A DNA stretch of 64,000 nucleotides from Halobacterium noricense (lineage in GTDB: Archaea > Halobacteriota > Halobacteria > Halobacteriales > Halobacteriaceae), in the NCBI RefSeq assembly GCF_021233435.1, contig NZ_CP089468.1:496001-560000 (forward strand). Reading direction: 5' to 3'. Shown piece after piece: positions 23,028 to 59,762 of this stretch; position 1 is the stretch's first letter, and every line of letters begins with the position of its first letter. Under the pieces are notes generated by a model. That model worked only from the letters and a program-made list of their open reading frames with translations. It did not search any database and was not told the DNA's origin. The translations under genes and the position numbers were made by a program.

Positions 23028-23387
23028 ATGTCAGAGGGCGGCGAGCTCGTCGCGGAGCTCCAGCAGCAGGCCGGAGACGCACTGCGTGTCGTCGCCGAGT
23101 ACGACAGGGAAGGCTACGACGTCCACTACGTCCGCGAGGACGTCGGCGCGCGTCTGGACGAGCGCGCGGACGCCATCCACCGGAACCTCGTGCTCGAAGG
23201 CATCAGCCGCGAGCACCTCGAAGACCTCTTCGGCGCGGGCGACCTCCACTGCTCGATGCATCGCTTCGACGAGATGACCGCGTTCCACTTCGCCGAAGAA
23301 GAGTACACGGGGCTGTTCGTCAGCGTCGAGTCCGACGCGGACCTGCCGCTGGCGTCGTTCACGGACACCTGCTGGCGGAGTCTCTAA
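23028..23387 (+). CDS. conserved haloarchaeal-type hypothetical protein (119 residues)
   Basis: MSEGGELVAELQQQAGDALR and onward is an acidic cytosolic protein. Conserved-looking blocks are VVAEYDREGYDVHYVRED and CSMHRFDEMTAFHFAEEEYTGLF. It resembles small haloarchaeal proteins of unknown function seen in many genomes. The start at ATG 23028 replaces a much longer frame-open region that overlaps the preceding gene. Its TAA overlaps the stop of the convergent endonuclease III gene by four bases. Confidence 0.75.
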   Translation: MSEGGELVAELQQQAGDALRVVAEYDREGYDVHYVREDVGARLDERADAIHRNLVLEGISREHLEDLFGAGDLHCSMHRFDEMTAFHFAEEEYTGLFVSVESDADLPLASFTDTCWRSL

Positions 23388-24292
23388 TCGGCGGCCTCGG
23401 CGGGGTCGACGACTTCTTCGGCGAGTTCGTCCACGCCCACCCTATCGCAGAGGTCGTACAGCGGACACGCCTCCGGGCCGTCGAGGCACGCGGGCTTGCG
23501 CGCCGAACAGTACTCGCGGCCGAACTGAATCATCGCCGTATGTCCGAACCCGCACTTCTCACCCTGGACCTCGGCCTCTAGGGCTTCGCGCACGTCCTCG
23601 TGGTCGGCATCCGGGGCGGCGAGCCCGAGCCGGCGCGCGATGCGGTGGACGTGCGTGTCCACGGGGAAGACGCCGTCGCGCCCACCCGCGAACAGCAGCA
23701 CGCAGTCGGCGGTCTTCGGGCCGACGCCCTTCATGTCCAGCAGCGCGTCGCGAACCTCGTCGGGGTCGTTGCTCGCGGTTTCACCGTCTTCTCGCGGGCT
23801 CCGCCCGCTCGAACGGTCCGAGGGACTTCGTCCCTCGCTACTCGCTCCGTCCGTGGAGCGTTGCTCCACGCGCCCCGTGCGAACGAACTCGTCGAACGCC
23901 GCTTCGCCGCCGTACTCCTCGCAGATGCGGCCGGCGATGCGAATCAGCGTCTCGGATTTTTGATTGTAGAGTCCTGCCGAGGAGATCGTCTCGGCGAGTT
24001 CGTCCTGGTGGGCGTCCGCGAGCGTCGCCGCGAGGTCCTGCCCGGCATCGTATCTGTCCATCAGCGCGTCGTGGGCGGGCTGGCTGGCGACGTCGCTGGT
24101 GTTCTGACTGAGAATCGTGCGAACGAGACACTCGAAGGCGTCGCGGCCCCCGTACGCCTTCTGCCAGTACATGTCCCCGAGCCGGTCGACGACGGCGTCC
24201 GCGCGGCTCGTGTCGTTGCCGGGCTCGAACTCGGTGAAGCGGCCGGCGGCGGCGTCACCACCCGAGATGTTCTCCGCGGGTTCGTCGTCCAT
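23384..24292 (-). CDS. nth: endonuclease III (DNA glycosylase/AP lyase) carrying a palindromic in-frame insert
   Basis: A 302-residue base-excision repair enzyme. The helix-hairpin-helix DMKGVGPKTAD carries the catalytic Lys, PVDTHVHRIARR the catalytic Asp, and four C-terminal Cys (CSARKPAC to CPLYDLC) form the 4Fe-4S cluster. The Cys spacing is slightly wider than in E. coli. Between EEYGGEAAFDEFVRTG and DPDEVRDALLDM lies a Ser/Arg-rich insert of about 35 residues that includes SSEGRSPSDRSSGRSPRED. It is encoded by three short palindromes and is absent from normal Nth proteins. Its position just before the HhH motif suggests a surface loop. The same peptide recurs in the acetyltransferase near 58.9 kb. 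Confidence 0.93.
   Translation of the reverse strand: MDDEPAENISGGDAAAGRFTEFEPGNDTSRADAVVDRLGDMYWQKAYGGRDAFECLVRTILSQNTSDVASQPAHDALMDRYDAGQDLAATLADAHQDELAETISSAGLYNQKSETLIRIAGRICEEYGGEAAFDEFVRTGRVEQRSTDGASSEGRSPSDRSSGRSPREDGETASNDPDEVRDALLDMKGVGPKTADCVLLFAGGRDGVFPVDTHVHRIARRLGLAAPDADHEDVREALEAEVQGEKCGFGHTAMIQFGREYCSARKPACLDGPEACPLYDLCDRVGVDELAEEVVDPAEAAD
23784..23844 (-). repeat. in-frame palindromic repeat, copy 1 (inside nth)
   Basis: A 61-nt unit that differs from copy 2 (58898-58958) at two positions. It holds perfect stems GCGGGC-TCC-GCCCGC (23794-23808) and CGAGGGAC-TTC-GTCCCTCG (23819-23837). A third stem of the same build, CGTGGAGC-GTT-GCTCCACG (23852-23870), follows in nth only. Read on the minus strand both copies encode SSEGRSPSDRSSG followed by SPREDG, so frame as well as sequence is shared between unrelated genes. 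Confidence 0.85.
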
Positions 24293-24348
24293 GCTTGGAG
24301 GTCTGTCGGCGAGCCCAAAAAGCACCGCGACGGCTCCCAGCCGGTGGG

Positions 24349-24762
24349 CTACTCGACGCGCAGCGTCGCCGTGAGGTCCGCACCGTCCGCGAGCGCGGCG
24401 ACGAGGTCGCGGTCGAGGTCCACGGCGGCCTCGTCGGCGTCCACGAAGATGGTGCGGTCGTCGACGTACGTGCTCGTGCGCCCGACCATGCTGCGCTCGT
24501 TCGTGTATTCGAGGTCCGGGTGGCCCGACCCCGTCACTTCCTCGCGGTGGCCGTCGGCTTCGAGCACGAGCGTAATCGTGGCGTCCTCGTCCTGACAGGC
24601 GGCGACGAACTCGCGGTCGAAGTCCGCGGGCGCGCGGTCGGCGTCGATGCCGACGATGCAGTCGCCGGCGGGCGTGAGGTAGTCGTCGGTCGTCACTTCC
24701 AGCGTGGACGCGTGTTCGGCCGTGACGTGTTCGTGGCCGGTCGCCCGCACGACTTCTTCCAT
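24349..24762 (-). CDS. DUF371-family protein
   Basis: A 137-residue protein, MEEVVRATGHEHVTAEHAST and onward. The RGHE-like start, the LTPAGDCIVGI block, then RAPADFD and a repeated second half (DYVDDRTIFVDADEAAVDLDR) fit the archaeal DUF371 family, a small beta-rich protein conserved in Euryarchaeota with unknown function. No catalytic motif is evident. It has its own T-rich upstream region and is followed by nth after 56 nt on the same strand. Confidence 0.8.
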   Translation of the reverse strand: MEEVVRATGHEHVTAEHASTLEVTTDDYLTPAGDCIVGIDADRAPADFDREFVAACQDEDATITLVLEADGHREEVTGSGHPDLEYTNERSMVGRTSTYVDDRTIFVDADEAAVDLDRDLVAALADGADLTATLRVE

Positions 24763-25064
24763 GGGCTGGGGTTGCCGGTAGCCGCACTTGTGTGCGGCGT
24801 TCCGCGACCACTCTTTAAGTGCAGCTACCCACTCCTGTGGGGGCCGTTACCACTCGCTGAAGGGGGTCTGACAACTGCTTGCACGCGACGCCCCGTCGGA
24901 AATTTTAAGTGGCGTGGAGGAGTATTACCCGTTACCAGAACGCTGCGTGCGTTCGTGCACAGCCCGAGAGAATGACAGGACGTTCTCCTTCCGACCGGGA
25001 AGTCACACGCTCCGAGCGACGGCTGTCTCGAACACCCAGCGGGTATGGCATCGAGGTTTGAACA
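24763..25064. promoter_or_regulatory. divergent promoter region before the coiled-coil gene
   Basis: A 302-nt spacer without a convincing gene. It contains two similar AT-rich boxes, CTCTTTAAGTGC (24811-24822) and AATTTTAAGTGG (24901-24912). The second is a plausible TATA box that would give a leader of about 130 nt for the gene at 25065. A hairpin-like GAGAA...TTCTC lies near 24970-24990. Confidence 0.4.
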
Positions 25065-41882: not shown

Positions 41883-42887
41883 ATGGAACGCAGGAAGGTC
41901 CAAGTCACCGGGGGCTCGACGTTCACTGTCTCGATTCCGAAAGACTGGGCGCGAGACCACGACGTCGAAGCCGGCGACGAAGTCGGCTTCCACCCCGACA
42001 GCGGGTCGCTGCTGTTGACGCCGGTGACGCCGGCCGACACCGAAGAGGGAACACTCGACATCTCCGGGATGGAGGGCGACGAGCTCATGCGCGCGGTGAT
42101 GACGATGTACGTCAGCGGCTTCGACGTGCTCGCGCTCGAAGCCGACCGCATCAGCTCCGACCAGCGACGCGTCATCCGCAACGCCACCCAGGGGCTCGTC
42201 GGCCTCGAAGTGCTCGAAGAGACCGGCAACCGCGTCGTCATCCAGGACCTGTTGGACTCCTCGGAGCTCTCGATTCACAACGCCGTCCGCCGCATGCACC
42301 TCATCTCCACCTCGATGCTCGGCGACGCCGTCGACGCGCTCGGCAACCGCGACCTCGACGTCGCCACCGACGTCATCGAGCGCGACGACGACGTCGACCG
42401 CCTCTGGTACGTCGTCTCCCGCATCTTCCGCGGCGCGCTGCGCTCCCCGAAGGTCGCCCAGGAGATCGGGCTCGGCCGGGAGACCGCCTTCGACTACCAC
42501 TCCAGCGCCCGCCAGCTCGAACGCGTCGCCGACCACGCCGCGAAAATCGCCAACGTCACCCACGAACTCGACGCCGACGTCCCCGACGACGTGGCGGGCG
42601 CGCTCGCGGACCTCGAAGCCGACGCCACCGACATCGTCGGCACCGCGATGGAGGCACTGTTTACCGACGACCCGGAGGAAGCGACCCAGCTCGCTAACGC
42701 GGCCCGCGCGGACGTCCGCGCCATCGACGAACACACCCGCGCCATCGACGACCTCCTCCACGACCTCGACCCCCACCACGCCCAGCACCTCGGGCTCGTC
42801 GTCGACTCCCTCTCGCGGAGCGCCGACTACGGCGGCAACATCGCCGAGACCGCGCTCCAGAAGTCCGCGCCCACGCCCGACCCGTGA
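41883..42887 (+). CDS. AbrB-domain/PhoU-domain phosphate regulator
   Basis: A 334-residue protein. The N-terminal SpoVT-AbrB DNA-binding domain is about 1-50 (MERRKVQVTGGSTFTVSIPK, DWARDHDVEAGDEVGF). Two PhoU-type helical repeats follow (about 105-330; YHSSARQLERVADHAAKIAN and VVDSLSRSADYGGNIAET). It combines a DNA-binding and a phosphate-signalling module and is divergent from pstSCAB-phoU, so it is a likely regulator of that operon and of itself. ATG 41883 is chosen for the AbrB start and the TATA spacing. The upstream 35 in-frame codons lie in promoter DNA. Confidence 0.9.
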   Translation: MERRKVQVTGGSTFTVSIPKDWARDHDVEAGDEVGFHPDSGSLLLTPVTPADTEEGTLDISGMEGDELMRAVMTMYVSGFDVLALEADRISSDQRRVIRNATQGLVGLEVLEETGNRVVIQDLLDSSELSIHNAVRRMHLISTSMLGDAVDALGNRDLDVATDVIERDDDVDRLWYVVSRIFRGALRSPKVAQEIGLGRETAFDYHSSARQLERVADHAAKIANVTHELDADVPDDVAGALADLEADATDIVGTAMEALFTDDPEEATQLANAARADVRAIDEHTRAIDDLLHDLDPHHAQHLGLVVDSLSRSADYGGNIAETALQKSAPTPDP

Positions 42888-42990
42888 CGCCGTACAGCCA
42901 GGACCGTGTAAGTTCTGCCGGCGTCCGTGACTACTGACACCGGCACTCGATATCCACAAACCTATACGTGACAGCGTTGATTCCGAGCGT

Positions 42991-43962
42991 ATGAGCGAGG
43001 ACTTCCCCGACTACCTCGACGTCGACTACACGGACGGTGAAGGCGAATCCCCCGAGGACTACCCCACGCTCGAAGACAAAATCGAGAAGGCAATCGAAGT
43101 CACGCGCAAGGGCCTCGAAGAGTACGACAACCCCGCCATCATGTGGACCGGCGGGAAGGACTCCACGCTCACGCTGTACTTCGTCAAGGAGGTCGCCGAG
43201 CAGTTCGATCTCGAAGTGCCGCCGACCATCTTCATCGACCACTTCCAGCACTTCGACGAACTCCACGACTTCGTCGACCACTGGGCCGACGAGTGGGACC
43301 TCGACGTCGTCTACGCCCGCAACGAGGACGTCGGCGACTACGTCGACGAGAACGACCTCGAACCCGGCGACGACATCCCCATCGACGCGCTCGACGAACA
43401 GAACCAGCACCACGTCCGCGACCTCCTCGAATACGAGGAGGACTCGTTCCCGTTCCTGCTGGACACCTACGTCGGCAACCACCTCCTGAAGACCGTCGCG
43501 CTCAACAACGCCCTCGAAGAGCACGACGTCGACGGCATCCTCTCGGGCATCCGCTGGGACGAACAGGAAGCCCGCGCCGACGAGACGTTCTTCAGCCCGC
43601 GCCACGACCCCGACGTCTACCCGCCGCACGACCGCGTCCAGCCGATTCTCCAGTTCGACGAAGCCGCCGTCTGGGACGCCTTCTGGTTCTACGTCGTCCC
43701 CGAGACCGTCGAAGACTACCCCGACGAGGGCTACGTCCCACAGGACTACGACGACCTCCCGAACGGCCTCACGCACGAGGACGTCCCCGTCTCCCCCAAG
43801 TACTTCAAGGGCTTCCGCTCGCTCGGCAGCGAAATCTCCACCGACAAATCCGCCGACGAGCCCGCCTGGCTGCAGGACCTCGAAAATACTACCGAGCGCG
43901 CAGGCCGCGCCCAGGACAAAGAAGACCTCATGGAGCGCCTGCGCGACCTCGGGTACATGTAA
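42991..43962 (+). CDS. PAPS reductase / CysD-like PP-loop protein
   Basis: A 323-residue adenine-nucleotide alpha hydrolase. The PP-loop variant MWTGGKDSTLTLYF has TGGKDS at 53-58. It is followed by the IFIDHFQHFDELHDF strand and the GIRWDEQEARADETFFSPRHD region. It resembles phosphoadenosine phosphosulfate reductase and sulfate adenylyltransferase subunit 2, but the C-terminal Cys of PAPS reductases is not present, so true reductase activity is doubtful. A TATA (CCTATACGTG, 42961-42970) about 25 nt upstream fits leaderless transcription. The sequence directly after its stop is a large dispersed repeat. Confidence 0.8.
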   Translation: MSEDFPDYLDVDYTDGEGESPEDYPTLEDKIEKAIEVTRKGLEEYDNPAIMWTGGKDSTLTLYFVKEVAEQFDLEVPPTIFIDHFQHFDELHDFVDHWADEWDLDVVYARNEDVGDYVDENDLEPGDDIPIDALDEQNQHHVRDLLEYEEDSFPFLLDTYVGNHLLKTVALNNALEEHDVDGILSGIRWDEQEARADETFFSPRHDPDVYPPHDRVQPILQFDEAAVWDAFWFYVVPETVEDYPDEGYVPQDYDDLPNGLTHEDVPVSPKYFKGFRSLGSEISTDKSADEPAWLQDLENTTERAGRAQDKEDLMERLRDLGYM

Positions 43963-43965
43963 ACG

Positions 43966-44190
43966 CACTTTTTGCTGCGCTCGGCGGCCTCCGGCCGCCT
44001 CACTGGCAAAAACTTGCGGCAAAAGCACTCCTCGCTCCCGATGGTCAGTCGTCGGCCCGCGCTCGTTCGCTGCTCACGGCTCGCTTTGCTCGCCGTTCGC
44101 CCAGAACGAGGCGCTTCGCGCCTCGCACCGCTCACTCGCGCGGTGAACCGCTCGCCTCGGGTCTTTCAGACCACTCGGCTCGCGGATGCT
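43966..44190 (+). repeat. large dispersed 3' repeat, copy A
   Basis: About 225 nt starting 3 nt after a stop codon (CACTTTTTGCTGCGCTCGG) and ending GGCTCGCGGATGCT. It is the inverted counterpart of copy B (46736-46911). Shared blocks are CACTTTTTGCTGC, a 29-nt block at 44005-44033 (one mismatch with 46835-46863), GTCAGTCGTCGGCC, GTGAACCGCTCGC, and the end. Between them are hairpins such as CGAGGCGC-TTC-GCGCCTCG (44107-44125). The T5 run after the stop could also terminate transcription. The further 60 nt to the next gene (44191-44250) show nothing else. Confidence 0.8.
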
Positions 44191-44250
44191 TGTTACGTCT
44201 CTTCTCGGTTCAGCGAAGGCGCGTCCGGTGGCGATTCCGCCACAATCAGG

Positions 44251-45078
44251 TCAGTTCCACGGCGCGAACCCGGGGTCGACCTGCCGCTCGCGCGCCTCGA
44301 TGCCGTCGATTTTCGCGACATCCTCGTCGTCGAAGTCGACCGCGAGGCTCCCGAAGTTGTCCACGATGTGGGACTCGCTGGTGGCCTTCGGGATGGCGGT
44401 GACGCCCTTCTCGCGAACCCACGCGAGGCTGACCTGCGCTTCGCTGACGCCGTGTTTCTCCGCGACGTCCTGAATCTCGGGGACGTCGAAGACGTCGCCG
44501 CGCGCGAGCGGCGAGTACCCCACGATTTCGAGGTCGCGACCCTCGGCGTACTCCCGGAGTTCCTCCTGCGGGAGCAGCGGGTGGAGTTCGACCTGATTCG
44601 CGAACGGGTCCTCCCCGAGCACGTCGCGGGCCTCGTCGAGGTGCCGGGGTTCGAAGTTGCTCACGCCGATGCGGTCGGTGAGTCCGTCCTCACGGAGCTG
44701 CTGGAACGCCGACAGCGTCTCCTCGGCGTCGTACTCGCGGGACGGCCAGTGGACGTACAGGAGGTCCACGGCGTCCACGCCGAGCTTGTCCAGGCTTTCC
44801 TCGGTCGTCTCGATGACGTCGTCGTGGCCGAGGTTGTCGATCCAGACTTTCGTCGCGAGGAAGACGTCCTCGCGGGGGACGTCGGCCTCCGCGATGCCGC
44901 GCCCGATGGCTTCCTCGTTGCCGTACGCCTGCGCGGTGTCGATGTGCCGGTAGCCGGCTTCGAGGGCAGTACGGACGCTCTCGGCGCACTGTTCTGAATC
45001 GTCGTTCTGCCACGTGCCGAGCCCGAGCATCGGCATCTCGTTCGCCAGCGGTGCGCGTCGCTGCTCGTTCTGAGACAT
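44251..45078 (-). CDS. aldo/keto reductase
   Basis: A 275-residue NADPH-dependent (beta/alpha)8 reductase. The catalytic tetrad is visible: Asp47 and Tyr52 in RHIDTAQAYGNE, Lys77 in LATKVW, and a His in LLYVHWPSR. GVSNFEPRHL and the IPKATSESHIVDN cofactor region follow. It is close in length to bacterial 2,5-diketogluconate reductase-type enzymes; the substrate is unknown. The start is ATG 45078. With the following gene it forms a two-gene minus-strand block bracketed by inverted repeats. Confidence 0.9.
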   Translation of the reverse strand: MSQNEQRRAPLANEMPMLGLGTWQNDDSEQCAESVRTALEAGYRHIDTAQAYGNEEAIGRGIAEADVPREDVFLATKVWIDNLGHDDVIETTEESLDKLGVDAVDLLYVHWPSREYDAEETLSAFQQLREDGLTDRIGVSNFEPRHLDEARDVLGEDPFANQVELHPLLPQEELREYAEGRDLEIVGYSPLARGDVFDVPEIQDVAEKHGVSEAQVSLAWVREKGVTAIPKATSESHIVDNFGSLAVDFDDEDVAKIDGIEARERQVDPGFAPWN

Positions 45079-45139
45079 GGTCGAATCGACGGCCGCCGCG
45101 GGGTTAGTGCTTGTGGAGGCGGCGAGGAACTGCCCCGAC

Positions 45140-46378
45140 CTACCGCTCGGCGAGGCGCTGTTTCGCGAACTGCGCGAGCAGCGGCAGGTCGTCGAGGTGG
45201 ACGAGCTTCGAGATGCCGCGCAGCCCGCCCTCGTTTGCTTCGCCGAGCGTCTCCACGTCCATCGCGTTGAGGTCGTCCATGAGCCGGTCGTAGCGCTCGT
45301 TCGGCGTGAGGTAGAGGAGTTGGGTCATCGCGAGCCGGCGGCGCATGTCGGGGGCGACCCGGCTCCGCCAGAGGTCGTCGTAAATCGACATCGCGTCCGC
45401 GGACGTGTCCGTCTCCGTCCCCATCAGACAGCGGTCGGCGGTGATGGCGGCGGCGCGCGCGGACTCCATGCCCTTGTGGATGCCCTCCCCCCACAGCGGG
45501 TCGATGGTGGGGACGGTGTCGCCGATGGCCATGAAGTTGTCCGTACTGAAGCCGTCGGGCATCTGAATGTGCGCGGAGCCGCGGTGCTGTTGTTTGTCCG
45601 CGATGCGTTCGGCGTTCTCGAAGCGCGGGTCCTCGTCCAGCCACGCTTCGAGGTGTTCGTCGATGCTCCGCGTCGTGTCGCCGTACTGCTGGTAGCGCTC
45701 GTGCTGGATGTAACAGAGCCCGACCTTCGCCGTGTCCTCGCCCGTGTGGAAAATCCACGAGTAGCCGCCGGGGACGACGTCGTGGTCGAGACGCAGCATC
45801 ATCGCGTTCGACAGGTCCGCGAAGTCGGGGTGGTCGACGTCGACGCCCTCCATCTCCCACTCGATGCCGACCGCCTGGTGTTGGCGCTGGAGGTCGCAGA
45901 CGCCGAGCTTCTTCGCGAGCGGCGCTGCCGGCCCCGTCGCGTCGACGACAATCTCGGCGTAGACCTCCTCGTCGCCGGCGTACTGTACGCCGACGATGTC
46001 CCCATCCTCCATGATGGGGTTGTTCACGCGCGCGTCGAAGCGGTACTCCGCGCCGTGCTCGCGGCCCTCCGCGACGAGCCACTGCTTGAACTCCGCGAAC
46101 TCCAGCACTGCGCCGGGCTGGGTCTGCACGAAGTACTCGTTCGGGGATTCGAGGACGACCTCGTCGGTGTACTGCATCACGATGTCGTCGGGAATTCCGA
46201 ACGCGCCCGTCATCGACGCGAACGTGCCCGCCGTGGACTTGTTCGACTGGCGCGGGAACCCGTCCTCGGGTTCGGCTTCCAGCACGAGGACGTCGTAGTC
46301 CCGCTGGGCGAGGTCTCGCGCGCACTGTGCTCCTGCCGGACCAGCGCCGGCGACGACGACGTCGTAGTGCTCAGACAT
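45140..46378 (-). CDS. geranylgeranyl reductase-family FAD oxidoreductase
   Basis: A 412-residue FAD enzyme. It starts MSEHYDVVVAGAGPAGAQCAR (FAD motif GAGPAG at 11-16). A middle YxWxFP-like block GGYSWIFHTGEDTAKVG and the FMAIGDTVPTIDPLWGEGIHKGMESAR second FAD motif are characteristic. These enzymes saturate the geranylgeranyl chains of archaeal lipids, or menaquinone or carotenoid side chains. Haloarchaea have several paralogues, so the exact substrate is open. It lies 61 nt upstream of the aldo/keto reductase on the minus strand. Confidence 0.88.
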   Translation of the reverse strand: MSEHYDVVVAGAGPAGAQCARDLAQRDYDVLVLEAEPEDGFPRQSNKSTAGTFASMTGAFGIPDDIVMQYTDEVVLESPNEYFVQTQPGAVLEFAEFKQWLVAEGREHGAEYRFDARVNNPIMEDGDIVGVQYAGDEEVYAEIVVDATGPAAPLAKKLGVCDLQRQHQAVGIEWEMEGVDVDHPDFADLSNAMMLRLDHDVVPGGYSWIFHTGEDTAKVGLCYIQHERYQQYGDTTRSIDEHLEAWLDEDPRFENAERIADKQQHRGSAHIQMPDGFSTDNFMAIGDTVPTIDPLWGEGIHKGMESARAAAITADRCLMGTETDTSADAMSIYDDLWRSRVAPDMRRRLAMTQLLYLTPNERYDRLMDDLNAMDVETLGEANEGGLRGISKLVHLDDLPLLAQFAKQRLAER

Positions 46379-46671
46379 GGCGTAGAGGGTCGGCGTGTAG
46401 GTGCGGCGCTCGGGCCGCGGTGGTCGGACGGACGCCGGGCTGTGAGTGTCGGCGCTCGGGCGAGTGCCCGCCTCCGTAGCCGGCCGCGTCGGCGTCCGCA
46501 GTCACTGTTACTCGACGTAAGTCGCGTCGCAGGTAAAAAACACGCGGGAACGTTCCTGACGCCCGCGAAAGGGCGGAATACTGTGGATCGACTTCGAATT
46601 GCTCGACGTAATCCCGTAGTATCTCTTTACACGCGTACCTTAATCTGCTTGAGCGAAGCAGAGTCTATTGA
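46379..46671. other. intergenic region upstream of the geranylgeranyl reductase gene
   Basis: 293 nt without a supported gene. The left part is very GC-rich with repeats of CGGCGCTCGGG type. An A/T-rich core with AGGTAAAAAACACG at 46531-46544 and the perfect palindrome GGAACGTTCC (46547-46556) may belong to a promoter or operator. At the right end CTTTACACGCGTACCTTAATC (about 46625-46645) is a candidate TATA for the small ORF at 46672. Confidence 0.4.
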
Positions 46672-46809
46672 ATGTCGTCAACCGACGGAGACGATGAATC
46701 ACAGTTCGACGAAGTTGTCGACTCTCTCGATAGCGAGCATCCGCGAGCGCCGCGAGGCGCGAGCGGTTCACTCCGCGACCGGAGGGAGCGGAGGCCGACG
46801 ACTGACTAA
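46672..46809 (+). CDS. small ORF with acidic start, C-terminal half replaced by repeat sequence
   Basis: 45 codons from ATG 46672. The first 23 residues (MSSTDGDDESQFDEVVDSL and onward) have typical haloarchaeal acidic N-terminal character. From about codon 24 the frame reads through repeat copy B (PRAPRGASGSLRDRRERR) to TAA at 46807-46809. It may be a truncated remnant of a larger gene or a small protein. A TATA-like CCTTAATC about 27 nt upstream suggests transcription. No function can be given. Confidence 0.35.
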   Translation: MSSTDGDDESQFDEVVDSLDSEHPRAPRGASGSLRDRRERRPTTD

Positions 46810-46911
46810 CGCGCCCGGAGGGCGCGGCAGGAAGGAGGAGTGCTTTTGCCCCAAGTTTTTGCCAACGAGCGAGGGCGCGTTAGCGCCCGAGCGAGTGCAG
46901 CAAAAAGTGGC
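46736..46911 (-). repeat. large dispersed 3' repeat, copy B (inverted)
   Basis: About 176 nt on the minus strand, starting 3 nt after the korB stop with CCACTTTTTGCTGCACTCG and ending GCTCGCGGATGCT. It lies in inverted orientation to copy A (43966-44190). It contains hairpins GGGCGC-GTTA-GCGCCC and GCGCCC-GGA-GGGCGC and the shared 29-nt block at 46835-46863. Both copies follow immediately after a gene's stop codon in the sense direction, so they could serve as 3' ends. Confidence 0.8.
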
Positions 46912-47781
46912 CTAATAGAACTCCCGAACGAGGTCGGTCGCGCCGTCGGGTGCGCCGTCGGGAAGCTCGGCCATGTTCTCGTGGACGCCGTGGGCTTCGT
47001 GGTACGGCGTGGAGTTCTCGTCCTGGTAGAGGACGCCCATGTACTCCTTGTCGGCGTCGAGGATGGCGTCCTTGGCTTGGTCGTAGTCGTGGCGGTCGTA
47101 GTCGTCTTCCTCGGAGAGGTCCACCAGACTGTCGCGGAAGTAGTCGTAGGTGTCGACGTCGTTGAACGTGACGCACGGGCTGAACGTGTTGACGAGGCTG
47201 AATCCGTCGTGTTCGATGGCTTCCTTGACGATTTCCGTGTGGCGCAGCGCGTCGGAGGAGAAGCTCTGCGCGATGAACGACCCGCCGGCGGACATCGCGA
47301 GTGCGAGCGGGTTGACCGGCGGCTGCTTCGGGCCTTCCGGGGTGGTGGAGGTCTCGAAGTCGGGCCGGCTGGTCGGGGACGCCTGGCCCTTGGTGAGGCC
47401 GTAGATGCGGTTGTCCATCACGACGTACGTGATGTCGACGTTCCGGCGGACGGCGTGGATGAAGTGGCCGACGCCGATGGAGTAGCCGTCGCCGTCGCCG
47501 CCCGCGACCATCACTTCGAGGTCGGGGTTGGCGAGCTTCGCGCCGGTGCCGACCGGGAGCGCGCGGCCGTGGACGCCGTGGAGCGCGTACGAGCGCATGT
47601 ACGTCCCGATTTTGCCGGAGCAGCCGATGCCCGCGACGACGAACGTGTCGTCGGGCGTGTTGCCGGTCTCCGCGAGCGCTTTCATCATGCCGTTCATGGT
47701 GCCGAAGTCGCCGCAACCCGGGCACCACGTCGGCTGTTTGTCGGACTTGAAGTCGGTGAATCGGACGTTCTCTGAGCTCAT
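46912..47781 (-). CDS. korB: 2-oxoacid:ferredoxin oxidoreductase, beta subunit (probably 2-oxoglutarate)
   Basis: A 289-residue thiamine-diphosphate subunit. PTWCPGCGDFG near 18-26 holds a Cys pair of the 4Fe-4S/ThDP region, and VMVAGGDGDGYSIG with the GDG-x-N-type motif binds ThDP-Mg. VVMDNRIYGLTKGQASPTS is the usual substrate-channel segment. It pairs with the alpha subunit directly upstream (3 nt between its ATG and the alpha stop). Short length and the adjacent gamma-alpha fusion fit KorAB rather than PorAB, but pyruvate cannot be excluded. The complex makes acyl-CoA and reduced ferredoxin in the TCA cycle. Confidence 0.88.
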   Translation of the reverse strand: MSSENVRFTDFKSDKQPTWCPGCGDFGTMNGMMKALAETGNTPDDTFVVAGIGCSGKIGTYMRSYALHGVHGRALPVGTGAKLANPDLEVMVAGGDGDGYSIGVGHFIHAVRRNVDITYVVMDNRIYGLTKGQASPTSRPDFETSTTPEGPKQPPVNPLALAMSAGGSFIAQSFSSDALRHTEIVKEAIEHDGFSLVNTFSPCVTFNDVDTYDYFRDSLVDLSEEDDYDRHDYDQAKDAILDADKEYMGVLYQDENSTPYHEAHGVHENMAELPDGAPDGATDLVREFY

Positions 47782-47784
47782 GAG

Positions 47785-49527
47785 TTAGGCCTCCAGGGTC
47801 TGCTTGATTTCGTCGGCGAGTTCGTCAGCCTTGAAGTCGACGCCGTCGTACTTGTTGATTCGGTCGACGCGTTCGAGGGTGTCGTGTTCGACGACGTTCG
47901 CGAACTGGCCGGTGGCGTTGGCTTCGATGACGACGACGTCGTCGGCGGCCTGCACGTCGTCGGTGAGGTCGGGCCGCGGGAAGATGTACGGGACGGAGAG
48001 CACGCGCACGTCGAGGTCGTCGAGGTAGTCGAGCGCTTCGACGATGGTGCCCTCGTTGGAGCCCCACGAGATGACGAGGCTGTCCGCGTCGGCGTCGCCG
48101 AACTCGCGGTAGTCGAAGTTCTCGCGTTCCTCGGCGGTCTCGACTTTGCGGTTGCGCTTGTCGACCTGTTCGACGCGCACGTCCGTGTCCTCGGTCCGGC
48201 GGCCGAGTTCGTCGTGCTCGAGGCCGGTGGACATGTGGACGCCGCCCTCGGTGCCGGGGACGGCGCGCGGGCTGATGCCGTCGGCGGTGACGGCGTGGGC
48301 CTTGAACTGGTCTTTCTCGTTCTGCCACGCGGAGATTTCGTTCTCGTCGACGAGCTTCCCACGGTCGATTTCGACCTCGTCCATGTCGAACTCGTCGGGC
48401 TCGTAGGTGCGCTCGGTGACGGCCATCGAGAGGTCGGCCGTGAGGTAGACGGGGAGCTGGTACTTCTCGGCGAGGTTGAACGCCTCGACGGTCTTGTGGA
48501 AGCACTCCGCGACCGACGTGGGCGCGAGGACGAACCGCGGGACTTCGCCGTGGCCGCCGTACAGCATCATGTTGAGGTCGCCCTGTTCCTGCTTCGTGGG
48601 CATCCCCGTGGAGGGGCCCGAGCGCATGACGTTCGTGATGACCAGCGGCGTCTCGCTGGTGGCGACGAGGCCGAACGTCTCGCTCATCAGGTCGATGCCG
48701 GGGCCGGAGGTCGCGGTCATCGCGCGAGCGCCGGCGCGGGCTGCGCCGAGCGCCATGTTGATGGCGGAGAGTTCGTCCTCGGCCTGGACGACGTGGCCGC
48801 CGAACTGTTCGATGCGGCCGGTGAGGTACTCCATGACGTCCGTCGCGGGCGTGATGGGGTAGCCGGCGTAGAACCGGCAGCCGGCGGCGATAGCGCCCAT
48901 GCCGATGGCTTCGTCGCCGTTCAGCAGGACGTAGTCGTTGTCGGTGGTCTCCAGCTCGTAGGGGTTCTCGACGTCGGCGTACTCGTCGTTGACGTACTCG
49001 TAGCCGAGCCGGGCGGCCTGTTTGTTGTTCTCGACGATGCTCTCGCCTTTGTTCCCGAAGCGCTTCTCCAGGGACTCGTCGAGGTTCTCGATGGGGAAGT
49101 CGGTGACCGCGCAGACGGCGCCGAGCGCGACGATGTTGCGCATGATGGCGCCGCCGGCGTCCTCGGCCAGCGACTTCAGGGGGATGTCGAGGCCGACGGT
49201 GTCGTCGGGGGCCTCGAAATCCGAGAACTCCGTGCGGTCACCGTCGAAGATGATGACCGACTCCTCGTGGAGTTCGTCGAGGTTCTCGTCGACGGTGCGC
49301 TCGGTGAGCGCGATGAGCACGTCGAGTCGGTCGACGACACTCTGCACCTCGTCGACGGACGTTCGAATCTTGTAGGCGGTGTATCCGCCGCGGATTCGGG
49401 ACGCGAAGTCCTTCGAGGTGAAGACGTGGCGACCCGCGCGGGACAGCGCCTGCGCGAAAATTTTCCCGGTGGACGCGATTCCATCGCCGGCTTCGCCGCC
49501 GATGGCCCAGTTCAGGTCGTCGTGCAT
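47785..49527 (-). CDS. korA: 2-oxoacid:ferredoxin oxidoreductase, alpha subunit (gamma-alpha fusion)
   Basis: A 580-residue subunit. Residues about 1-195 are the gamma domain (AIGGEAGDGIASTGKIFAQA, then SRIRGGYTAYKIR). Residues about 215-580 are the alpha domain (YAGYPITPATDVMEYL, VVQAEDELSAINMALGAARAG, TSGPGIDLMSE). ATG 49527 starts MHDDLNWAIGGEAGDG; the longer open frame upstream adds 33 non-family residues and spans promoter DNA. A T-rich GGCTTTTTGC about 30 nt upstream fits a leaderless transcript. It is first in a korA-korB operon. Confidence 0.9.
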   Translation of the reverse strand: MHDDLNWAIGGEAGDGIASTGKIFAQALSRAGRHVFTSKDFASRIRGGYTAYKIRTSVDEVQSVVDRLDVLIALTERTVDENLDELHEESVIIFDGDRTEFSDFEAPDDTVGLDIPLKSLAEDAGGAIMRNIVALGAVCAVTDFPIENLDESLEKRFGNKGESIVENNKQAARLGYEYVNDEYADVENPYELETTDNDYVLLNGDEAIGMGAIAAGCRFYAGYPITPATDVMEYLTGRIEQFGGHVVQAEDELSAINMALGAARAGARAMTATSGPGIDLMSETFGLVATSETPLVITNVMRSGPSTGMPTKQEQGDLNMMLYGGHGEVPRFVLAPTSVAECFHKTVEAFNLAEKYQLPVYLTADLSMAVTERTYEPDEFDMDEVEIDRGKLVDENEISAWQNEKDQFKAHAVTADGISPRAVPGTEGGVHMSTGLEHDELGRRTEDTDVRVEQVDKRNRKVETAEERENFDYREFGDADADSLVISWGSNEGTIVEALDYLDDLDVRVLSVPYIFPRPDLTDDVQAADDVVVIEANATGQFANVVEHDTLERVDRINKYDGVDFKADELADEIKQTLEA

Positions 49528-56238: not shown

Positions 56239-58302
56239 ATGGATACGCTCGACGAAGTGGACGAGATTGTCCACCGACCCGACGACGAGTTCGTCGAGTC
56301 CACGAACGTCTGGCAGTTCATGCAGACGTACGCCATCGCGGACTACGACGAACTCGTCGAGCGCACCACCTCGGACCTCGACTGGTTCTGGGGGGAGCTC
56401 CCCGGCTACCTCGGGCTGGAGTTCTACGAGGACTTCGACGAGGTCCGGGACGAGAGCGGGGCGCGACGCGCCCCGGACGGAGCGAGCGGCGCAGCCGCGA
56501 GCCGTGGCGGCCCACAGTTCACGGAGTGGTATCCGGGCGCGAAACTCAACGTCGCGCACAACACCGTCGACCGCCACGCCGGCGTCGACTCGGGCACCCG
56601 CAACCACGTCGCCTGCATCTGGGAGGGCGAGGACGGCGAGGTCCGCCAGCAGACCTACCACGACCTCCACCGGCAGGCCAACCAGGTCGCGAACGCGCTG
56701 ACCGAGCGCGGCATCGGCGAGGGCGACACGGTCGGGCTCTACATGCCGATGGTGCCGGAGGTCCAGAGCATCCTCTACGGCGTCTTCAAGGTCGGCGCCA
56801 TCGCCGTCCCCATCTTCTCCGGGTTCGGCGTCGACGCCACCGCCACTCGCATCGCGGACGCGGAGTGCTCGGTGCTGTTCACGGGCGACGGCTTCTACCG
56901 CCGCGGCGACGAAATCACGCTCAAGGCGACCGCCAACGAGGCCATCGAGCAGGCCGGCCACGTCGAACACACCATCGTCTACGACCGATTAGGGGCAGAC
57001 ATCCCGTGGAACGACGACCGCGACGAGTGGTGGGGCGACGCCGTCGCGACGCAGGCCGACGACTTCGAGACGCGCGCGATGGACGCCAGCGACCCCTGTA
57101 TGCTCCTGTACTCGTCGGGCACGACGGGGAAGCCGAAGGGTATCGTCCACACGCACGCGGGCACGCTCGTCCAGCCCGCCAAGGAGATTCACTTCGGCTT
57201 CGACCAGAAACCCGGCGATCGCTTCTTCTGGGTGAGCGACATCGGCTGGATGATGGGGCCGTGGACGCTCGTCGGCAACCACGCGTTCGGCGGCACCATC
57301 GTGATGTACGAGGGCGCGCCCGACCACCCCGAACCCGACCGCTTCTGGGACCTCATCGACCGCCACGGCGTCACCCAGTTCGGCATCTCGCCGACCGCGA
57401 TTCGGGCGCTCCGGAAATACGGCAGCCGTCAGACTGCGTCTGACGAGCCATCCGGAACCGAGGGTTCCGGAGACGACGAGTGGCTCGACGGCCACGACCT
57501 CTCCAGCCTGCGCCTGCTGGGTTCGACGGGCGAGCCGTGGGACCCCGAGAGCTGGGAGTGGTTCTACGAGCACGTCGGCGGCGGCGACACGCCCATCATC
57601 AACATCTCCGGCGGCACCGAGGTGTTCGGCTGCTTCCTCATGCCGATGCCCATCCAGCCCCTCAAACCCTGCACGCTCGGCGGCCCGGGCCTCGGCATGG
57701 ACATCGACGTCGTCGACGAGGACGGCAACTCCATCAAGGACGCCCACGAGCGCGGCTACCTGGTCGCGCGGTCCTCGAACCCCGCGATGACGAAGAGTCT
57801 GTGGAGCGGCGACGAGCGCTACCTCGAGGAGTACTGGTCGCGCTTCGAGGACGTCTGGAACCACGGCGACTGGGCGCAGGTCGACGAGGACGGCTTCTGG
57901 TTCCTGCACGGCCGCGCGGACGACGCCATCAACGTCGCCGGCCGGAAGGTCGGCCCCGCCGAGGTGGAGGGCGCGCTCATCGACCACGACGCCGTCAACC
58001 AGGCCGCCGCGGTCGGCGTCCCCGACGACACTACGGGTGAGGCCGTCGTCGCGTACGTGATTCTGGAGGACGACGTCGAACCCAGCGATGACCTCCGGAC
58101 GGAACTCCGCGAGCAGGTCGGTACCGAACTCGGCAAGCCGTTCCGCCCGCGCGAGGTGCTGTTCGTCGACGAGTTCCCGCAGACCCAGTCCGGGAAAATC
58201 GTCCGCCGCGCCATCGAAGGCGCGTACACCGGCGAGGACGTCGGCGACCTCTCCAGCATCGAGAATCCAGACGCCATCGACGCAATCGAGAACGCGCAGT
58301 AG
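56239..58302 (+). CDS. acs: acetyl-CoA synthetase (AMP-forming) with palindrome-encoded inserts
   Basis: A 687-residue ANL-superfamily ligase making acetyl-CoA from acetate and ATP. Key sites are LLYSSGTTGKPKGIVHTH near 290, ISGGTEVFG, GDWAQVDEDGFWFLHGRADD with the ATP-binding Asp, and the acetylatable-Lys motif PQTQSGKIVRR near the C terminus. Two short regions look inserted: ESGARRAPDGASGAAASRGG (about residues 74-93), encoded with a GGGGCGC-GAC-GCGCCCC hairpin, and GSRQTASDEPSGTEGSGDD (about 395-413), encoded by two perfect hairpins. Both lie outside catalytic motifs. The start is ATG 56239. Confidence 0.93.
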   Translation: MDTLDEVDEIVHRPDDEFVESTNVWQFMQTYAIADYDELVERTTSDLDWFWGELPGYLGLEFYEDFDEVRDESGARRAPDGASGAAASRGGPQFTEWYPGAKLNVAHNTVDRHAGVDSGTRNHVACIWEGEDGEVRQQTYHDLHRQANQVANALTERGIGEGDTVGLYMPMVPEVQSILYGVFKVGAIAVPIFSGFGVDATATRIADAECSVLFTGDGFYRRGDEITLKATANEAIEQAGHVEHTIVYDRLGADIPWNDDRDEWWGDAVATQADDFETRAMDASDPCMLLYSSGTTGKPKGIVHTHAGTLVQPAKEIHFGFDQKPGDRFFWVSDIGWMMGPWTLVGNHAFGGTIVMYEGAPDHPEPDRFWDLIDRHGVTQFGISPTAIRALRKYGSRQTASDEPSGTEGSGDDEWLDGHDLSSLRLLGSTGEPWDPESWEWFYEHVGGGDTPIINISGGTEVFGCFLMPMPIQPLKPCTLGGPGLGMDIDVVDEDGNSIKDAHERGYLVARSSNPAMTKSLWSGDERYLEEYWSRFEDVWNHGDWAQVDEDGFWFLHGRADDAINVAGRKVGPAEVEGALIDHDAVNQAAAVGVPDDTTGEAVVAYVILEDDVEPSDDLRTELREQVGTELGKPFRPREVLFVDEFPQTQSGKIVRRAIEGAYTGEDVGDLSSIENPDAIDAIENAQ
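56458..56474 (+). repeat. palindrome inside acs (site 1)
   Basis: Perfect stem GGGGCGC-GAC-GCGCCCC, 7 bp with a 3-nt loop, at the beginning of a low-complexity Gly/Ala/Arg peptide that interrupts the N-terminal region of acetyl-CoA synthetase. A short CGGC-GCA-GCCG stem follows near 56487-56497. Confidence 0.55.
57427..57471 (+). repeat. paired palindromes inside acs (site 2)
   Basis: Two perfect hairpins in-frame: CGTCAGAC-TGC-GTCTGACG (57427-57445) and TCCGGAACC-GAG-GGTTCCGGA (57451-57471). They encode RQTASDEPSGTEGSG between IRALRKYGS and the conserved DLSSLRLLGSTGE block. Stem length and triplet loops match the nth/acetyltransferase repeat, although the sequence differs. Confidence 0.65.
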
Positions 58303-58524: not shown

Positions 58525-59196
58525 TTACTGTATTGCCCACTCGCGGCGCAGGAGGTCGTAGCGCACCTCGTCGTAGTAGTCGCCGTCGATGTACCGGGAC
58601 TCGCGGCGGCGCGCGACCTGCGTGAACCCCATCGCCTCCAGCAGCCCGCGGGAGGCGTCGTTGAACTCGTAGGCGCCCGCGGTGATGCCGTGGACGTCGT
58701 AGTTCTCGAAGACGTAGTCGATGCCCGTCTCGGCCATGTCGCGGCCGTACCCCTCGCCGTGGTACTCGGGGAGCAGCCAGTACGACAGCCACACGCGGTC
58801 GCCGTCCACGTGGCGCGCGTTGAAGCTCCCGATAGGCGTGGTCTCCTCCTCGTTGGGGTGGCCGCGGGGCGCACCTTCCTCGTCTCGCAGCTCGTCGCCG
58901 TCTTCTCGCGGGCTCGGCCCGCTCGAACGGTCCGAGGGACTTCGTCCCTCGCTGCTCGACTGTTTCGCGGCGGTTTCCGCCGCGCCGTCATCGCACGCGA
59001 CGAACGTCGCCGTGCCCTCGCTCTCTATCCACTCCTCGATGCCTTCCTCCTGCTGGGCGCGCGAACGGTGGTGAATCGAGCCCAGCGAGTAGCGGATGCG
59101 GGGGTCCGTACAGGAGCGCTGGATGAACGCCGCGTCGTCGCGCTCGACGGTGCGGAACGTGACGAGCTCGCCCTCGGTGACGACTGGCCCGGGCAT
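58525..59196 (-). CDS. GNAT acetyltransferase carrying the palindromic in-frame insert
   Basis: A 223-residue RimJ/RimL-type N-acetyltransferase (FRTVERDDAAFIQRSCTDP start, then WLLPEYHGEGYGRDMAETG as the acetyl-CoA site and ASRGLLEAMGFTQVARR at the C-terminal end). Between TATFVACDDGA and APRGHPNEEETTPIG lies an extra about 36-residue stretch that includes SSEGRSPSDRSSGPSPRED, the peptide also inserted in endonuclease III. The adjacent paralogue reads ACVDEDDAPYDHPDDEETTPV at the same place without it, defining the insertion. The start ATG 59196 overlaps the stop of that paralogue by one base. Confidence 0.87.
   Translation of the reverse strand: MPGPVVTEGELVTFRTVERDDAAFIQRSCTDPRIRYSLGSIHHRSRAQQEEGIEEWIESEGTATFVACDDGAAETAAKQSSSEGRSPSDRSSGPSPREDGDELRDEEGAPRGHPNEEETTPIGSFNARHVDGDRVWLSYWLLPEYHGEGYGRDMAETGIDYVFENYDVHGITAGAYEFNDASRGLLEAMGFTQVARRRESRYIDGDYYDEVRYDLLRREWAIQ
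58898..58958 (-). repeat. in-frame palindromic repeat, copy 2 (inside acetyltransferase)
   Basis: A 61-nt unit matching 23784-23844 except at two positions, same orientation relative to its host gene and same reading frame. The CGAGGGAC-TTC-GTCCCTCG stem is intact. In the first stem the middle changes from TCC to TCG. The third stem seen in nth is absent here. Confidence 0.85.
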
Positions 59197-59762
59197 TATC
59201 GACCCTCCCACTCCTCGCGGAGCAAGCCGTACTCCACGGCGTCCTGGTACTCGCCCTCCGCGAACCACACCTCGCGGCCGCGGCCCTCGTCGGTGAAGCC
59301 GACAGTCTCGAACGCGGCTCGCGTGTAGTCGTCGCCGTCGAGCACTTCGGCGCCGACGGTGTGGGCGTCGTACGTCCGGAACAGCCCCTTCAGAGCGAGG
59401 TCGACTGCGGCAGCGCCGTGGCCCTCGCCGCGGTGCTCCTCGGGCACCCAGAGCACGAGCCCCGGCCGGTCGCGGTCGACGTGGCTCGCGAACACGAACG
59501 CGACGGGTGTCGTTTCCTCGTCGTCGGGGTGGTCGTAGGGCGCGTCATCCTCGTCCACGCACGCGAGGTAGGCCGCGTTGGACTCGTCCTCGACTTCCTC
59601 TTCGACGAACTCCTCGACCTGTGCCTCACTCTTGTGGCCGCCCGCGTGGAGGCCGAGGCGCGCGTACGGGTCCGTGAACAAGCGCTGGAGGAACGCCGCG
59701 TCGTCGCGCTCGACGGTCCGCAGGACGAGGTCGTCGCTGACTTCGAGTATCGGCCCGGGCAT
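59196..59762 (-). CDS. GNAT acetyltransferase (paralogue without insert)
   Basis: A 188-residue RimJ/RimL-type N-acetyltransferase, MPGPILEVSDDLVLRTVERD and onward. The acetyl-CoA loop is WVPEEHRGEGHGAAAVDL, and DDYTRAAFETVGFTDEGRGR follows. It is a tandem paralogue of the next gene (both start MPGP and share TVERDDAAF, EETTP and the C-terminal REEW). Its stop overlaps the paralogue's ATG by one base, so the two are probably co-translated. The substrates are unknown. Confidence 0.85.
   Translation of the reverse strand: MPGPILEVSDDLVLRTVERDDAAFLQRLFTDPYARLGLHAGGHKSEAQVEEFVEEEVEDESNAAYLACVDEDDAPYDHPDDEETTPVAFVFASHVDRDRPGLVLWVPEEHRGEGHGAAAVDLALKGLFRTYDAHTVGAEVLDGDDYTRAAFETVGFTDEGRGREVWFAEGEYQDAVEYGLLREEWEGR

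Follow-up and report, generated by a model that had tools for sequence, protein, structure and literature searches.

In salt-loving archaea, a large family of hairpin-rich dispersed repeats sits a few bases past the stops of housekeeping genes, and the two opposed copies flanking a pair of genes in the stretch of Halobacterium noricense DNA analysed here (64,000 nt of contig NZ_CP089468.1; the window) are not a special pair, being two of at least 53 copies of this family. Across sister species the position of the elements is kept while their sequence is exchanged. The elements most likely help end transcription, and it is with about even confidence that we read the copies as gene-end cassettes for termination or insulation, spread by copying and retained at their sites by function. 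Direct observation covers their position, layout and copy number, the covariation, the loop rule and the occupancy of sites relative to sequence turnover; we infer in addition that hairpins form on the template strand and that copies are exchanged by gene conversion.

The initial annotation described two opposed copies with ordered blocks in common, and both are present, at 43966-44190 (forward) and 46736-46909 (reverse), on either side of an aldo/keto reductase gene (AKR; PF00248) and a gene for a geranylgeranyl-reductase-like FAD enzyme (GGR). The identity of 28 of 29 positions between 44005-44033 and the reverse complement of 46835-46863 was borne out (one mismatch), as was a T5 run in each copy (43969-43973, and 46906-46902 on the minus strand). 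Each copy had also been placed 3 nt after a stop codon, which is accurate for copy 1 (stop ending at 43962) and not for copy 2, where the first conserved base, 46909, lies 2 nt past the stop at 46914-46912. In BLAST, either copy retrieves the other with an E value of 4.5e-9 (G000:C1:542835-542909, G000 being the genome of the window). The features of the locus, in window coordinates, are:

42991-43962, forward: gene owning copy 1, PAPS reductase family (PAPS_reduct, PF01507)
43966-44190, forward: element copy 1, behind the PAPS-reductase-family gene (stop 43960-43962), with conserved ends CACTTTTTGC ... GCGGATGCT
43969-43973, forward: sense T-run (T5) of copy 1, 6 nt past the stop codon
43983-43999, forward: hairpin H1 of copy 1, 7 bp with a C(TCC)G triloop
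44008-44012, forward: A-run 1 of copy 1, complementary to the T-run
44021-44024, forward: A-run 2 of copy 1, behind the spacer CTTGCGGC (44013-44020)
44107-44125, forward: internal hairpin of copy 1, 8 bp with a C(TTC)G triloop
44148-44185, forward: terminal stem P4 of copy 1, flanked by GTGAA and ATGCT, with arm covariation over 99 copies
44251-45078, reverse: AKR, lying between the copies
45140-46378, reverse: GGR, lying between the copies
46736-46909, reverse: element copy 2, behind the 2-oxoacid:ferredoxin oxidoreductase (OFOR) beta gene (stop 46914-46912)
46810-46826, reverse: internal hairpin of copy 2, C(TCC)G on the element sense strand
46844-46847, reverse: A-run 2 of copy 2
46856-46860, reverse: A-run 1 of copy 2
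46902-46906, reverse: sense T-run of copy 2, 5 nt past the stop
46912-47781, reverse: gene owning copy 2 (TPP_enzyme_C, PFO_beta_C)

That the copies belong to a large dispersed repeat proved right. Copy 1 as a query returned 79 pieces from its own genome, with many dispersed copies near-identical, and a 68-position profile of the first module returned at least 67 matches at E ≤ 1, a lower bound as 150 of 6702 candidates were scored in the first pass; only 48 family places were found at E ≤ 1e-3. The profile (R1) used sequence only, since MAFFT misaligned the variable hairpins and an RNAalifold model was not usable. Removal of eight matches lacking a 5' end, four antisense shadows and two inner parts of nested copies left the 53 curated copies. 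Among the matches listed, all were on the main replicon, contig C1 (2.89 Mb of the 3.32 Mb genome), and none on C2 or C3. A loose pattern search of wider contigs gave 62 matches, four of them in Halobacterium records (H. bonnevillei, H. sp. KA-4 twice and H. sp. CBA1126), the rest falling in other genera and taken as chance; the pattern was too loose. Generic repeats in the window were set aside as codon-periodic background.

The elements share a layout of stop codon, T4-6 tract, hairpin, A-run, 7-8-nt spacer, A-run, further hairpins and ATGCT. The 5' end lies 0-6 nt after the stop and reads CACTTTTTGC, CACTTTTTCC, TACCTTTTGC or a relative, followed by H1, which varies in sequence among copies and in several of them has two extra hairpins nested inside it, and by GCAAAAAC or GCAAAAGC. 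The spacer occurs as CTTGCGG, GCTACGCT, GCTCGGCC or CCGACACC, ahead of the second A-run and GC, and the 3' portion consists of more hairpins separated by GTCGTCGGCC and GTGAA, the final stem and ATGCT. By eye, CACTTTTT at one end and ATGCT at the other show no inverted-repeat relationship. One element of the GACC type is tandemly duplicated together with its flank (G000:C1:2530747-2530983, 176 bp apart), and at the site of 2435735- in the sister genome G004 (locus L252) an internal deletion has left only the ends of an element, with CACTTTTTGCTGCGCTCG running straight into GCGAATGCT.

The tie to stop codons noted at the two copies holds for most copies in the genome. Forty-four of the 53 curated copies start 0-6 nt past the TAA (21) or TAG (23) of a supported open reading frame (at least 70 codons, GC3 minus GC2 >0.2), at distances of 0 nt (6 copies), 1 (5), 2 (8), 3 (11), 4 (10), 5 (2) and 6 nt (2). 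A tract of four or more T follows the stop by 3-9 nt in all 44 and by 4-7 nt in 39, while the nine copies without a supported stop directly upstream are mostly of the GACC/CTCGGCC type. Among loci from relatives, where stops up to 24 nt upstream of the T-run were allowed, a supported stop lay within 16 nt in 19 of 21 cases inside the genus and 13 of 18 outside it, nearly all at 4-9 nt. As a control, only two of the 48 genes called in the window have a T5 within 12 nt of their stop, and both are element genes.

A Pfam family was found in 28 of 30 upstream proteins scanned, most of them encoded by core genes and including TatC, Rad51/RadA, Cdc6, MetG, DnaJ, EF-1 beta, AdoMet synthetase, thermosome, GcvH and PanB. 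On rough GC3 calls, the downstream neighbours of the 44 anchored copies are convergent in 21 cases, codirectional in 20 and unclear in three, a split similar to that at the ends of transcription units and thus counted in favour of the gene-end terminator reading. Nine of the 44 have a head-to-head partner on the same rough calls, since each copy belongs to its own upstream gene; convergent pairs can carry one element each, head to head, so an element serves the gene behind which it lies. A second intergenic repeat (GCGTAGGTTCAARTA ... CCAAC ... GCGTGAYCTGA) lies just behind some elements (G000:C1:856753-, 1899669+ and 2754316+), and in G004 and G010 it is apparently this repeat, in place of the element, that stands at the end of metG.

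Orthologous sites in three sister species (G004, G010 and G002) were read by eye for 20 randomly drawn element genes, two of the 60 ortholog pairs having no match. Of the remaining 58 stops, 42 carry a full element, a high occupancy for a family with only 48 places in the window genome at E ≤ 1e-3, three a partial or displaced one and 13 none, and the element is thus not essential at a given gene. Median identities between orthologous elements (.57,.56 and.59) are those of non-orthologous elements (.57,.58 and.56), set against 81-100% identity in the adjoining 120-nt coding ends (one 72% match, a non-ortholog, was left out). Element types appear to have been swapped at the thermosome genes between G000 and G004. 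Behind the two genes that own the copies, most of the 13 genus members have some element at the stop, often of another type, and some have none or a decayed one; one member, G007, has no family match at E ≤ 1e-3 and only an apparent decayed copy behind its OFOR beta gene.

Structural features were compiled from 132 modules, in which the T-run is present by construction of the scan and a stop in any frame was demanded within 14 nt upstream, so that they provide no evidence for stop anchoring; the set is phylogenetically non-independent and holds a few doubtful modules (e.g., L081). The length of the T-run equals that of A-run 1 in 92% of modules (59% expected from shuffling) and that of A-run 2 in 86% (58% expected), with T/A1/A2 lengths in the TACG spacer family of 5/5/5 (17 times), 4/4/4 (12), 6/6/6 (2) and 3/4/4 (2); as the copies have common ancestry, this agreement represents a few events and not 132. 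The last stem, P4, was found in 99 of the 132 modules, its outer positions forming 3.61 of 6 pairs compared to 2.90 when shuffled (sd 0.08; maximum 3.17 in 1000 shuffles).

The hairpins follow a loop rule. Among 166 distinct triloop hairpins with stems of at least 6 bp, 141 have the loop C(TNC)G (107) or C(GNA)G (34), the former reading as the latter on the opposite strand, and the same rule applies to eight of the 34 hairpins of the window outside 43951-46950. Four-base loops are T..C in 10 of 21 cases and G..A in one. The strand bias is alike for elements on the two chromosome strands (36:9 and 32:8) and therefore follows the element and not the chromosome strand. For stems of at least 7 bp there were 124 distinct perfect hairpins and six with one mismatch, so few that a strand test by G-T versus A-C mismatches has just those six stems to draw on. 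DNA mini-hairpins are described as unusually stable when a G-C pair closes a GNA or GNNA loop (PMC4686876). Collectively, the loop rule, the strand bias and the near-perfect stems suggest that the structure is maintained in DNA, chiefly in the template strand. Two adjacent perfect hairpins of similar style also occur at 57420-57475, inside an apparent coding region.

In the gene-end reading, the T4-6 tract would act where it lies, 3-9 nt past the stop of the owning gene, and most likely RNA polymerase therefore releases the transcript hardly any distance past that codon. A terminator role had been raised initially as a possibility, and the stop-anchored T-run fits such a possible role. A T5C stretch proved to stop 95% of transcripts in living Haloferax volcanii cells (PMC7237163). 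Seen from the opposite strand, each of the two A-runs is a T-run and would halt transcription arriving from the far side. Because the T-run would be enough for termination, the conserved 150-200 nt that follow it must do something else as well; the hairpins there, whose C(GNA)G loops lie mainly on the template strand, probably form a DNA-level structure that helps to stall the polymerase or serves as an insulator of the gene end. The family would have spread by copying, with copies at different genes replacing each other or exchanging modules, and we propose that the need for the function keeps a site filled. Several observations count against a terminator: a T-run followed by a hairpin reverses the order of an intrinsic terminator; most T-runs are followed by GC, compared to the C preferred in Haloferax (PMC7237163); and there are the nine unanchored copies, the 13 empty orthologous sites and the genome G007 without matches. 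A terminator of the bacterial intrinsic type was rejected, a simple scan having found no GC-rich hairpin directly before a T-run on either strand of 43900-47000.

The main alternative, though an unlikely one, is that the elements are non-autonomous mobile palindromic repeats behaving like REP or MITE sequences, which spread via single-stranded DNA hairpins and survive mainly behind stops, where they do no harm. Many near-identical dispersed copies, presence/absence differences at the 13 of 58 orthologous sites, the extra hairpins nested within H1 and loops that fit single-stranded mini-hairpins, with their 107:34 strand bias, all agree with mobility. So does a second palindromic family, inserted cleanly and in frame into endonuclease III in the window genome and G010 and absent from G004 and others, which indicates that hairpin DNA does move in this genus. 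However, insertions tolerated in intergenic space should scatter, and selection against harm leaves the 3-9 nt gap unexplained; the confinement to C1 of the matches listed also speaks against mobility. The transposase domain Y1_Tnp (PF01797; presence judged by a cut-off of E ≤ 1e-5 only) is missing from six of the 12 element-bearing genus genomes (G003, G005, G006, G008, G009 and G012), yet found in G007, and mobilisation by an IS200/605-RAYT system was rejected because the domain does not track the element. A plasmid or phage origin was likewise rejected, with no match in plasmid and phage collections, which may omit records very near the window genome.

The second palindromic family was seen in the window at 23780-23870 (endonuclease III-like frame, 23384-24811, minus strand) and 58895-58960 (acetyltransferase-like frame, 58525-59268, minus strand), both genes named by eye. 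Both palindromes are in the same frame and add nearly the same peptide, SSEGRSPSDRSSG-SPREDG; the genome holds 12 matches, and G004 has the exact empty site for the endonuclease III palindrome. We take this family to resemble Rickettsia palindromic elements.

It is improbable that the elements act as a transcribed, structured 3' UTR, in which RNA from the stop onwards would fold (pairing of the T-run with either A-run, followed by P2-P4) and control mRNA stability or sense a terminating ribosome covering the T-run. The three-way agreement in length among the runs does suggest alternative pairing or a triple helix, the P4 arms covary and copy 1 folded as RNA gave a z of -2.48. This explanation is weakened by the early T-run, as the Haloferax result (PMC7237163) implies that most transcripts should stop at the leading T5 tract and never reach the structure, and by stems that are almost always perfect and lack the G-U pairs one would expect in RNA helices. 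The loops, further, obey a DNA rule, and a known RNA family was rejected, with no Rfam match at E ≤ 1 in 42000-49000.

A more elaborate form of the gene-end reading, which we consider quite doubtful, is a DNA-structured terminator coupled to the stop codon. The template strand would fold GNA-loop mini-hairpins and a T-A-T triplex (the A-run with two equal T-runs, favoured by high intracellular salt) that blocks the polymerase just past the stop, giving mRNAs with almost no 3' UTR, and the cassettes would circulate among housekeeping genes by gene conversion. Leaderless mRNAs are a common habit in haloarchaea, and a near-absent 3' UTR would be their counterpart.

Recombination between the opposed copies that flips the AKR-GGR segment, or a cassette boundary, had been put forward from their orientation and could draw on 40 nt in common at 88%, but it is exceedingly improbable and was rejected at the species level by synteny, the order and orientation PAPS(+)-AKR(-)-GGR(-)-OFORbeta(-) being the same in 12 of the 13 genus genomes (own included; 12 of 12 with linkage), the longest exact stretch in common being short and dozens of similar copies lying elsewhere. 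The AKR-GGR pair is never inverted in any linked relative, leaving the idea of a marked cassette unsupported, and in the thirteenth genome (G005) the outer genes lie ~40 kb apart, with AKR and GGR absent from the stretches taken. The copies are opposed because each belongs to the gene whose stop precedes it.

If the gene-end reading is correct, haloarchaea possess a modular element at gene ends that keeps its place while its sequence is exchanged freely. Selection on position could then be clearly told apart from selection on sequence, and archaeal termination would be linked to stop-codon position and DNA secondary structure. Each genome offers dozens of natural variants for testing the requirements of archaeal terminators, and annotators should be wary of open reading frames called inside these repeats.

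No description of such an element was found in the literature consulted, which had partial open-access coverage, and an earlier one may exist. REP/BIME repeats, associated with RAYT, are many-copy GC-rich palindromes in extragenic space at the 3' ends of genes, and their hairpins have a GTAG tetranucleotide at the foot. The family described here is alike in copy number, composition and location, but is a longer composite with conserved unpaired blocks, is fixed to stop codons and occurs in genomes of which six of 12 lack the Y1 transposase. The double-hairpin elements (DHE) of fungal mitochondria are also variable hairpins at conserved places with perfect stems and fast exchange, while the present elements lie on an archaeal chromosome and are anchored to stop codons. 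ENE/MALAT1-type elements form a U-A-U triple helix, and the core here, read antisense, is similar in having two U-runs and, beyond a hairpin, an A-run, all matched in length, though with four to six triples only and known from DNA sequence alone. The archaeal T-stretch terminator, an intergenic motif of Haloferax volcanii (PMC7237163), likewise has a T4-6 tract downstream of the stop, with a median 3' UTR of 97 nt to the first site; here, the tract lies 3-9 nt past the stop and is followed by a conserved hairpin array of 150-200 nt, in dispersed copies.
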